A model generated the notes under the pieces. The model saw only the letters and a list, made by a program, of their open reading frames with translations. It searched no databases and was not told where the DNA came from. A program made the position numbers and the translations under genes. A stretch of DNA of 64,000 bases from Salegentibacter sediminis (GTDB lineage Bacteria > Bacteroidota > Bacteroidia > Flavobacteriales > Flavobacteriaceae): assembly GCF_002078605.1 (NCBI RefSeq), contig NZ_MSJR01000006.1, forward strand, positions 150,054-214,053, read 5' to 3'. Every line of letters starts with the position of its first letter. Within the stretch, counting starts at the first letter, position 1. Of the stretch, positions 2,954 to 11,214 are shown piece after piece.

Positions 2954-4816
2954 ATGAGTACGGAAACCAGATATACCGAAGATAATATACGGTCGTTAGA
3001 CTGGAAAGAACACATCAGGATGCGTCCCGGGATGTATATCGGGAAACTGGGGGATGGTTCCAGTGCCGATGATGGTATTTATATTCTTCTAAAAGAAGTT
3101 ATAGACAACTGCATTGACGAATTTGTGATGGGAGCCGGGAAAACCATTGAGATCTCGGTGCAAAACCAACGCGTAATTGTTCGCGATTACGGGCGAGGAA
3201 TTCCATTAGGCAAAGTGGTAGATGTGGTTTCTAAAATGAATACCGGGGGAAAATACGATACCCGTGCTTTTAAAAAATCTGTAGGGCTTAATGGAGTTGG
3301 TACGAAGGCCGTTAACGCACTATCCTCATATTTTAGAGTCGAATCTACGCGAGACGGCCAATCTAAATCGGCAGAATTTGAGCAGGGAAATCTGGTAAAT
3401 GAAGAATTACTCGATGAAACTTCGCGCCGTCGCGGGACCAAAGTAACCTTTAATCCAGATGAGGTTATTTTTAAGCATTTTAAATACCGAAATGAATACA
3501 TCGAAAAGATGCTTAAGAATTATGTTTACCTCAATCCGGGGTTAACCATAATTTTTAATGGGGAGAAATTCCATTCTGAAAATGGTTTAAAGGATCTTCT
3601 AAGTGATAGTATCAGTGAAGAAGACCGTTTATATCCCATTATTCATCTTAAGGGTGACGATATAGAAGTAGCTATAACACATAGCCGAACTCAATACAGC
3701 GAAGAATACCATTCTTTTGTCAATGGCCAGAACACTTCCCAGGGAGGAACACATTTATCTGCCTTCAGGGAAGCGGTAGTGAAAACCGTTAGAGAATTCT
3801 ACGGAAAAAATTATGAAGCCAGCGATATTCGCAAATCTATAGTTGCGGCAATAAGTATCAAGGTGATGGAACCTGTTTTTGAGAGTCAAACCAAAACCAA
3901 ACTGGGTTCTACCGATATGGGCGGAAAATTGCCAACCGTTCGTACTTATATCAATGATTTCATTAAAACCCAGCTGGACAATTACCTGCATAAGAATCAG
4001 GAAACTGCCGAGAAACTTCAGCGTAAAATTCTTCAGGCTGAAAGAGAAAGAAAAGATCTTTCGGGAATACGAAAATTAGCACGAGACAGGGCGAAGAAAG
4101 CCAGTTTACACAATAAAAAATTAAGGGATTGCCGAATTCATTTAGGAGATAGTAAAAAAGAACGTTACCTGGAAACCACCTTGTTTATTACCGAGGGAGA
4201 TTCGGCGAGTGGTTCTATAACCAAATCCCGAAATGTAGAAACCCAGGCGGTTTTTAGTTTAAAAGGAAAGCCACTGAACAGCTATGGTCTGAGCAAAAAA
4301 ATAGTATACGAAAATGAAGAATTCAACCTTTTGCAGGCGGCCTTAAATATTGAGGAATCTTTAGAAGATCTTCGGTATAACAATATCGTGATCGCTACTG
4401 ATGCCGATGTAGATGGAATGCACATCAGGTTATTGCTCATAACATTCTTCCTTCAGTTTTTCCCGGAATTAATTAAGGAAAATCATCTTTATATTCTTCA
4501 AACTCCGCTTTTTAGAGTTAGAAATAAAAAAGAAACAATTTATTGTTACAGTGAGACAGAAAGGAAACAGGCCATCGAAAAGCTAAAAGGCAAAGTAGAG
4601 ATCACCAGGTTTAAGGGGTTAGGGGAGATTTCGCCAGATGAATTTAAATATTTTATTGGAGAAGATATTCGCCTGGATCCTGTTATGTTGGATAAAGAGA
4701 AGTCTATAGAGGAAATGCTTGGTTTTTATATGGGTAAAAACACGCCAGACAGGCAGGAATTTATTATTGATAACCTCAAAGTCGAACTTGATTTGGTAGA
4801 AGAACTAGGGATATGA
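2954..4816 (+). CDS. parE: DNA topoisomerase IV subunit B
   Basis: 620-residue ATPase subunit of a type II topoisomerase. It has a GHKL ATPase with Asn in [11 protein letters not shown] (about residue 52), the [11 protein letters not shown] loop, a transducer domain, and a TOPRIM domain with EGDSASG (414-420) and metal-binding DADVDG (483-488). The C-terminus ends soon after the TOPRIM without the long insert seen in many GyrB proteins. With ParC it decatenates replicated chromosomes. I assign ParE rather than GyrB because parC follows in the same operon and gyrA lies separately at 28251. Its stop overlaps the next ATG (ATGA), so translation is coupled. Confidence 0.95.
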
Positions 4817-5295
4817 GGTTTACCAATAAAAACGAAATAAAGGTAATCCCTTCGATTTATACCATATTGGTAGCCATTTTTGTCACCAATATATTTGTAA
4901 ATATCGAATTGATGGGCTCAGATGAGCCGGTGAATTTTAGCCATTATGTGCCAAATATTGTTGTGGTAATTCTGGCGATATACGTGCACCGGGTAGGGCA
5001 GGCCTTCGATTTTGATAGTGATGGAGAGACTCTTAATTTGAAGAATAACGGCGTGTTTTTTTCAAAGTTTATGGAATACCGGGTGAAAAAGGCCGAGTTT
5101 CCTAAACGCAAACTGGGAAAATACAGGTTTAGCGACTATTTTTTCTATTCAGCATTGACCATTTATATAAGTTCCCGCAGAAGACGCGGCTATAAAAAAT
5201 ATACATTTAACACTACTTTTTTAACCCGAAAAAAGAAAAAGGGAATGCTGAGTTCCCTTGATAAAATTCTCGAGAAGTCTAAAGCAACCGCCTAA
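4813..5295 (+). CDS. Unknown membrane protein between parE and parC
   Basis: 160 residues, no family recognised. Two hydrophobic segments are visible ([19 protein letters not shown], about 11-29, and [18 protein letters not shown], about 48-65), followed by a basic, Lys/Arg-rich soluble region ([19 protein letters not shown]). The basic tail could contact phospholipid or nucleic acid, but nothing catalytic is apparent. The gene overlaps parE by 4 bp (ATGA) and parC by 1 bp (TAATG), so it is translated as part of the topoisomerase IV operon. A role with ParCE is only suggested by position. Confidence 0.85.
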
Positions 5296-8804: not shown

Positions 8805-9218
8805 TCAATTTTCAAAAGCTTCAAAAGTCCCGTCTGTATAAAAAATCACAATTTTCTTTATTTGTTTTTCCTTTTGGGTAGAATCCATAGGAATTTTATG
8901 CTGTGGAATTCCAGAGGAAGGGTTTTCTTTTTCAGGAATAGGAGGAATTGGTTTTGACTGAAATTCGGGTTGCGGGGTAGAAACAGCTCTTTCTTTTGGG
9001 AATTTCCCTTTTCCATTTAAAAGCCAGTAGAGTTCTACCTCCGGAAAATGTGAGATCACTTTCATCACAAAATCCAGGCTGGGTTTATTTCTTCCCGATA
9101 GAATATGTGAAATAGAGGAGCGACCAACTTCAATCTGATCGGCAAATGCTGCAGCCGATAAATCGTAATAATCGATTATCTTTTCCAGTCTTGCAGCAAA
9201 TTTTTCGGTGTTTACCAT
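8805..9218 (-). CDS. XRE-family helix-turn-helix regulator
   Basis: 137 residues. An N-terminal XRE/Cro-type HTH is clear (LSAAAFADQIEVGRSSISHILSGRNKPSLDFVMKVI, about residues 18-55). A Pro/Lys-rich linker follows (about 75-118), then a short terminal block (KKIVIFYTDGTFEAF). There is no peptidase or ligand domain. The divergent spacer holds six copies of a 14-bp palindrome, one of them across this gene's start codon and one across its candidate -7 box, so autoregulation is likely. The divergent M14 peptidase gene has two copies over its promoter and is the probable target. DNA specificity is inferred from position only. Confidence 0.92.
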   Translation of the reverse strand: MVNTEKFAARLEKIIDYYDLSAAAFADQIEVGRSSISHILSGRNKPSLDFVMKVISHFPEVELYWLLNGKGKFPKERAVSTPQPEFQSKPIPPIPEKENPSSGIPQHKIPMDSTQKEKQIKKIVIFYTDGTFEAFEN

Positions 9219-9224
9219 TGTGAA
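9211..9224. promoter_or_regulatory. Operator-like palindrome 1 (TTTAC-CATT-GTGAA)
   Basis: Imperfect copy of the TTTAC-N4-GTAAA palindrome that covers the start codon of the XRE gene. Its centre is 34 bp from copy 2. Confidence 0.5.
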
Positions 9225-9244
9225 TTAAAATGATGTAAATTCTA

Positions 9245-9258
9245 TTTACAAATGTAAA
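9245..9258. promoter_or_regulatory. Operator-like palindrome 2 (TTTAC-AAAT-GTAAA)
   Basis: Both 5-bp arms match perfectly. It lies in the leader of the XRE gene, 34 bp centre-to-centre from copy 1 and 35 bp from copy 3. Confidence 0.65.
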
Positions 9259-9275
9259 TAAAAGATTCACAAGAA

Positions 9276-9283
9276 CAAAGTTA
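9276..9283 (-). promoter_or_regulatory. Candidate -7 box (TAACTTTG) of the XRE gene
   Basis: The minus strand reads TAACTTTG, matching TAnnTTTG, 58 bp before the XRE start. It overlaps operator copy 3, which would let the regulator block its own transcription. Confidence 0.45.
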
Positions 9284-9293
9284 CAATTGTAAA
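9280..9293. promoter_or_regulatory. Operator-like palindrome 3 (GTTAC-AATT-GTAAA)
   Basis: Contains the perfect 12-bp palindrome TTACAATTGTAA. It overlaps the candidate XRE -7 box. Confidence 0.65.
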
Positions 9294-9422
9294 CAAGTGT
9301 TTTTAGTTTAAATTATTTATTTATATAATAGTTTTTAAATAACTCATAAATAGAATGATATAATAATTTTTATGCTTAATAGGATAGATTCCTAATGGGT
9401 GTTCAGCTTTCTGAATATACTT

Positions 9423-9436
9423 GTTACACTTGTAAA
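9423..9436. promoter_or_regulatory. Operator-like palindrome 4 (GTTAC-ACTT-GTAAA)
   Basis: Same geometry as the other copies, with TTAC/GTAA arms. It sits upstream of the M14 promoter, 35 bp centre-to-centre from copy 5. Confidence 0.6.
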
Positions 9437-9457
9437 CACACATCTCTGCACAACTTG

Positions 9458-9471
9458 TTTACAATTGTAAA
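9458..9471. promoter_or_regulatory. Operator-like palindrome 5 (TTTAC-AATT-GTAAA)
   Basis: A perfect 14-bp palindrome that contains the TTG (9465-9467) that could serve as the -33 element of the M14 promoter. Confidence 0.65.
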
Positions 9472-9481
9472 ATATTGAATG

Positions 9482-9495
9482 TTTACTTTTGTGAA
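9482..9495. promoter_or_regulatory. Operator-like palindrome 6 (TTTAC-TTTT-GTGAA)
   Basis: Imperfect copy overlapping the M14 candidate -7 box and ending one base before its ATG. Binding here would block that promoter directly. Confidence 0.5.
9484..9491 (+). promoter_or_regulatory. Candidate -7 box (TACTTTTG) of the M14 peptidase gene
   Basis: Matches TAnnTTTG, with a TTG 16 bp upstream (9465-9467) as a possible -33 element. It lies inside the track ORF, which argues that translation starts at 9497 and not at 9479. Confidence 0.55.
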
Positions 9496-9496
9496 C

Positions 9497-10734: not shown

Positions 10735-11214
10735 ATGGCCAAGTTTAAATTAGACGAAACAGACCACCAGATTCTTGATATGCTTATCGAGAATACCCGG
10801 ACTCCTTTTACCGATATTGCCAAGAAACTATTAATATCGGCCGGAACCGTTCACGTAAGGGTGAAAAAGATGGAAGAAGCAGGAATTATTACTGGTTCTT
10901 CCCTGACATTGGACTATAAAAAATTGGGTTATGCCTTTATTGCTTACGTAGGCGTATTCCTTAAAAACACTTCTCAAACAAAATTCGTTTTAGAGAGAAT
11001 AAATGAAATTCCTTTTGTAACCGTTGCCCACGTTACTACCGGGAAATTTAATGTTTTTTGTAAAATAAGAGCTCGAAATACCCAACACGCAAAAGAGATT
11101 ATCTTTCAATTAGATGATATTGAGGGAGTTTATAGAACAGAGACAATGATTTCTCTGGAAGAGAGCCTGAACGATAAAAAACGCTTAATGCATTCTATTT
11201 TTCAGAATTTGTAA
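10735..11214 (+). CDS. Lrp/AsnC-family transcriptional regulator
   Basis: 159 residues. The N-terminal winged HTH is LDETDHQILDMLIENTRTPFTDIAKKLLISAGTVHVRVKKMEEAGIITG (about 5-55), and a RAM effector-binding beta-alpha domain follows (about 67-145, with VAHVTTGKFNVFCKIRARN). Lrp-type proteins form octamers that respond to amino acids, and autoregulation is common. The effector cannot be read from the sequence. A strong intrinsic terminator follows immediately, so it is monocistronic. Confidence 0.95.
   Translation: MAKFKLDETDHQILDMLIENTRTPFTDIAKKLLISAGTVHVRVKKMEEAGIITGSSLTLDYKKLGYAFIAYVGVFLKNTSQTKFVLERINEIPFVTVAHVTTGKFNVFCKIRARNTQHAKEIIFQLDDIEGVYRTETMISLEESLNDKKRLMHSIFQNL

Follow-up and report, generated by a model that had tools for sequence, protein, structure and literature searches.

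Loop formation by a DNA-binding regulator is usually shown by half-turn insertions in one model promoter. The closest described case to the locus reported here is Rco, an Xre-type HTH regulator of the B. subtilis plasmid pLS20, which forms tetramers, binds cooperatively and closes a phase-dependent loop, such that a 5-bp insertion destroys regulation (PMC4207663). Arrays of dyads are likewise used by the lambda CI and 434 repressors and by the controller (C) proteins. The initial annotation of the present locus, in which an XRE regulator is paired with an M14 peptidase, knew of no described regulon with this pairing, and we also found none in the open-access literature searched; the main text of the F. 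psychrophilum transcriptome paper mentions neither XRE regulators nor palindromes.

We analyzed a stretch of 64,000 nucleotides from Salegentibacter sediminis (contig NZ_MSJR01000006.1), hereafter the window. It contains six 14-bp TTTAC-N4-GTAAA palindromes in the spacer between an XRE/HTH_3 regulator gene and a divergent M14 gene (Table 1). The start positions of all six sites given by the initial annotation were right, as were the spacings of 34, 35, 143, 35 and 24 bp, the ATG-to-ATG spacer of 278 bp (9219-9496), the perfect arms of sites 2 and 5, and the inclusion of the XRE start codon (9216-9218) in site 1. Each site carries zero or one mismatch. The dyad consensus is TGTTTACAWWTGTAAACA, and the extended dyad derived from 252 sites is TGTTTACA-WW-TGTAAACA.

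Table 1 Features of the XRE-M14 locus, in window coordinates
Feature	Coordinates	Strand	Remarks
XRE regulator gene, 137 aa	8805..9218	-	N-terminal HTH_3, unstructured linker, C-terminal beta-hairpin IKKIVIFYTDGTFEAFEN
Putative operator site 1, TTTACCATTGTGAA	9211..9224		overlaps XRE start codon
Putative operator site 2, TTTACAAATGTAAA	9245..9258		holds XRE -7 box
XRE promoter -7 box, TACATTTG	9249..9256	-	inside site 2; minus strand 9256-9249
XRE promoter -33 box, TTTG	9276..9279	-	19 bp from -7 box; abuts site 3
Putative operator site 3, GTTACAATTGTAAA	9280..9293		minority of genera; 35/195 loci
Second, different palindrome, TAGGATAGATTCCTA (TAGGA-N5-TCCTA)	9380..9394		spacer middle
Putative operator site 4, GTTACACTTGTAAA	9423..9436		128/195 loci
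Putative operator site 5, TTTACAATTGTAAA	9458..9471		over possible -33 region of M14 promoter
Putative operator site 6, TTTACTTTTGTGAA	9482..9495		holds M14 -7 box; 24 bp after site 5 in 173/175 loci
M14 promoter -7 box, TACTTTTG	9484..9491	+	inside site 6
M14-family metallocarboxypeptidase gene, 387 aa	9497..10660	+	catalytic residues all invariant
Lrp/AsnC-family regulator gene	10735..11214	+	just after M14, same strand, in 79/79 named loci

The new result of this analysis is that the distance between the two site groups takes four values, one helical turn apart. Across 195 loci, the separation of sites 2 and 5 groups into classes of 202-204, 209-215, 221-225 and 232-235 bp, centered on ~203, 213, 223 and 234 bp. 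The best period was 10.5 bp, with R = 0.84 over the 195 loci and 0.81 after thinning to 71 lineages; 2000 draws from smooth distributions of equal spread, used as the null, reached a maximum R of 0.22 for 195 values and 0.32 for draws of 60. The same loci were used to derive the site weight matrix, which carries no distance information. The phasing was present both in loci with site 4 and in those without, and the M14-side group shifts as a block. On a single tree, built on the XRE and M14 proteins themselves, 29 of the 34 inferred steps of at least 4 bp were whole turns (within 1.6 bp), versus 6 of 22 on the same tree for the control distance, the interval between site 6 and the M14 ATG. In the window, site 2 to site 4 and site 3 to site 5 each measure 178 bp by coordinate arithmetic, which corresponds to 16.95 turns, and thus each pair lies on the same face of the helix.

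The phase kept between the groups supports looping on evolutionary grounds. Two groups placed over the controlled promoters with their helical phase maintained, as expected of a looping repressor, are known here from the sequence, and the earlier proposal of a cooperative switch with possible looping gains support from this phasing, from the palindromes present in orthologous spacers and from the coincidence of missing sites with a missing regulator. We think it quite probable that an autoregulating XRE repressor shuts both promoters via a helically phased DNA loop, and we infer from the conserved patterns binding, repression, tetramer formation and looping by the XRE protein. Dimers would bind each dyad. 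At site 2 the protein would cover its own -7 box, causing autorepression, to which site 1 over the start codon would add, and at sites 5 and 6 it would cover the promoter of the M14 and Lrp/AsnC pair. The two groups would touch across ~213 bp and close a loop; since the loop would make binding cooperative, both promoters would close together, and open together once a signal lowers XRE activity. Many genera lack sites 3 and 4, which means that the contacts within the loop either vary or rest on sites 1, 2, 5 and 6.

The XRE protein could also bind all of the sites and repress both promoters without any loop, the phasing then arising from a stiff or curved segment or from face-specific access of the polymerase. 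Each group covers its own promoter and could act alone, and a periodicity of A/T tracts might itself hold indels to whole turns. The A/T tracts of the spacer middle do have excess power at 10.5 bp, but the same was seen at 9.5 and 11.5 bp, and therefore this periodicity is only suggestive. Moreover, curvature between operators commonly assists looping. If the two promoters were independent, there would be no reason for sites 2 and 5 to stay in phase over ~34 inferred length changes, and the nearby distance to the M14 start codon is unphased. We regard repression without a loop as unlikely.

A second question is the sign of the regulation at the M14 promoter. The flavobacterial -7 element is TAnnTTTG, the Bacteroidota promoter consensus. 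On the XRE strand, 184 of 195 loci carry it within site 2; on the M14 strand, 175 of 183 carry it within site 6. The XRE promoter in the window reads TTTG-N19-TACATTTG. The initial annotation had put the XRE -7 box in site 3, which is unsupported, as TAnnTTTG sits in site 2 and only the upstream TTTG touches site 3; its placement of the M14 -7 box (TACTTTTG, 9484-9491) in site 6 proved correct. With its weak -33 box (TTG, 16-bp spacer), the M14 promoter resembles those that depend on an activator, and the XRE protein might activate M14 rather than repress it, or act as a dual regulator, like Rco of pLS20 at its own promoter; the location of site 4 upstream of the M14 promoter would suit this reading. 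Against it, most loci have site 6 right over the -7 box, and an operator in that position normally blocks the polymerase in the case of bacterial repressors. We judge activation improbable and retain repression through the loop.

In Salegentibacter and its allies, the -7 box is followed by the M14 ATG at a distance of 5 bp, whereas the ATG of other genera is ~12 bp further downstream. Given this short distance, the M14 mRNA of Salegentibacter may be leaderless, a type that accounts for ~5.5% of mRNAs in F. psychrophilum (PMC9723704).

The sites coincide with the XRE gene and are almost absent without it. Among ten genomes that have a clear M14 orthologue but lack the XRE gene, eight carry no site upstream of M14 and two carry a single weak one, compared with a mean of 4.6 sites in the XRE-bearing loci (n = 238). 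The M14 paralogues also lack sites. Since absence of the sites accompanies the natural absence of the XRE gene, the XRE regulator is the likely protein that binds the palindromes. In 220 of 225 loci the third XRE codon reads AAC despite a preference for AAT elsewhere in the gene (1233:459), indicating selection on the DNA sequence of site 1 where it overlaps the coding frame.

The dyad by itself does not name its binder, because its core, TTTACANNTGTAAA, is identical to the cop box of the CopY/CopR winged-helix repressors (PMC7253601). A BlaI/CopY-type winged-helix repressor encoded elsewhere could accordingly bind the array, the XRE neighbor being incidental; the dyad is the same as that of the Lactococcus CopR operators (PMC7253601), and the genome holds one BlaI-family gene. 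However, of the 10 genomes with an M14 orthologue that lack both the XRE gene and the array, 9 contain BlaI-family genes, no such site was found within ~1.5 kb at eight BlaI-gene loci, and the clusters adjoin XRE orthologues in nearly every genus. The sites thus showed no association with Penicillinase_R genes, BlaI genes being present without sites, and binding by such a repressor is disfavored as highly improbable.

The XRE regulator, the likely binder, is present in 283 of 301 Flavobacteriaceae genomes, and M14 is divergent from it in 238 of 243 distinct loci. In every species of Salegentibacter, a genus assigned here from named loci, the second XRE codon and the M14 ATG are 281-282 bp apart, and the six dyads keep constant positions, the third being the weakest, in a spacer whose middle has diverged. 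Site 4 lies 34-35 bp before site 5. The initial annotation would have been refuted by orthologous spacers lacking the palindromes; we found 330 sites (at most one mismatch) in 80 spacers, against 5.2 expected. The enrichment beside XRE orthologues that it proposed as support was also seen, the sites clustering there in nearly every genus, and a two-dyad (tandem) pattern searched over 60 relatives matched almost only in the XRE-M14 spacer. In one relative (G030), the same dyad forms two more pairs (3973-4018 and 5070-5104 of locus L157) a few kb away from the XRE-M14 locus; these fall within a methyltransferase-like gene and at its end, in or beside unrelated coding genes. Distant XRE homologues from outside the order (L356-L362) had no M14 neighbor in the stretch examined.

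The palindromes number six in ~330 bp, against 0.06 expected from shuffles of the same sequence. Whole-genome scans, performed as pattern searches, gave 276 matches versus 253 for the backward control, and the sole multi-site cluster was the XRE-M14 spacer. With no genome-wide excess of the pattern, the six sites represent one local array and not a dispersed repeat. In the search for a genome-wide regulon, the perfect sites inspected elsewhere were in or beside unrelated genes and formed no cluster. A chance origin in AT-rich intergenic DNA, to which a spacer middle of ~21% G+C and the lack of excess in a 2-mismatch scan of the window might point, is refuted by the orthologous spacers, with positions fixed across genera, and by the six sites seen against 0.06 expected, and its probability is negligible.

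The spacer holds other conserved elements. GGA-N5-TCC, the motif of the second palindrome, occurred in 52 of the 195 spacers, consistently 134-138 bp away from site 2, and never in the shuffles; it had no genome-wide enrichment. In Psychroflexus, where site 5 is displaced by 10 bp, the motif keeps its place relative to site 2. It is possible that this palindrome is an operator of the Lrp/AsnC protein encoded downstream. In addition, many genera have repeated copies of the short motifs AACTTTA and ACTGAAA in the middle of the spacer (e.g. 9310-9370), at 4 to 15 times their frequency in shuffles.

The HTH_3 profile (PF01381) matched the XRE protein with 28.9 bits, above the gathering cut-off of 23. 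The AlphaFold monomer comprises a confident five-helix HTH, a disordered, low-confidence linker and a C-terminal two-stranded hairpin, and its HTH fold is closest to those of the C proteins (C.AhdI), SinR and 434 Cro. The hairpin (IxKIVIFYxDGTFxxF, encoded at 8805-8860 of the window) is conserved and follows a hypervariable linker, and is a candidate oligomerization or ligand-sensing element. A reading of the protein as a HigA antitoxin was rejected (TIGR02607, 20.3 bits versus a cut-off of 47.7); the divergent neighbor is M14, and no HigB-like ORF adjoins the gene.

In the M14 protein, H76, E79, N136-R137, H166 and E249 are invariant in 30 sequences, providing the predicted zinc ligands (H76 and E79 of HxxE, and H166), the carboxylate pocket (Asn-Arg) and the catalytic Glu (E249). 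The PF00246 profile scored 45.6 bits against a cut-off of 21.6, and the fold matches bacterial M14 enzymes. Identity with the murein tripeptide amidase MpaA was rejected (NF007897, 24.9 bits versus 157). The Lrp/AsnC protein is 69-100% identical over 79 loci, mostly above 80%, and is far more conserved than the neighboring XRE and M14 proteins.

On balance, we believe that a chromosomal loop of ~20 turns, closed by an undescribed XRE regulator over the peptidase and Lrp/AsnC pair, has probably been kept in register throughout the family. If this is true, a spacer whose length changes almost only by whole turns documents how evolution has preserved helical phasing at a looping switch in nature, and ~200 species form a natural experiment in which about 30 inferred changes involve one or two whole turns and very few half a turn. 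Should binding be confirmed, the array would provide the first targets and operator of a regulator found almost universally in flavobacteria, and the locus would become a system for measuring selection on the torsional register of DNA.

The operators of CopY/CopR and BlaI/MecI (RNYKACANNYGTMRNY) share an identical dyad core, GTTTACAATTGTAAAC, with the array (PMC7253601), but these are winged-helix proteins of an unrelated family that serve copper or beta-lactam systems; a cop-box sequence does not by itself identify a CopY/BlaI repressor. The C proteins (C.AhdI, C.BclI) provide the closest solved HTH folds and autoregulate through multiple dyads, as predicted here, but they use tandem adjacent sites with no long loop and are linked to restriction-modification. 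The lambda CI and 434 repressors resemble the XRE regulator in their HTH_3 fold and in dyad arrays over divergent promoters, and also in dimer formation and autoregulation, both presumed here. CI, however, closes a 2.3 kb loop as an octamer and is inactivated by RecA-driven cleavage, whereas the XRE regulator has just a short beta-hairpin in place of a peptidase-like C-terminal domain. The likeness to Rco (PMC4207663) extends to an Xre-type HTH regulator, divergent promoters and two multi-operator groups, with cooperativity that we infer for the XRE protein. Rco operates a plasmid conjugation switch (Pc/Pr) with a 75-bp spacer, overlapping promoters and relief by a quorum peptide, whereas the XRE locus is chromosomal and conserved family-wide, with its promoters ~240 bp apart.
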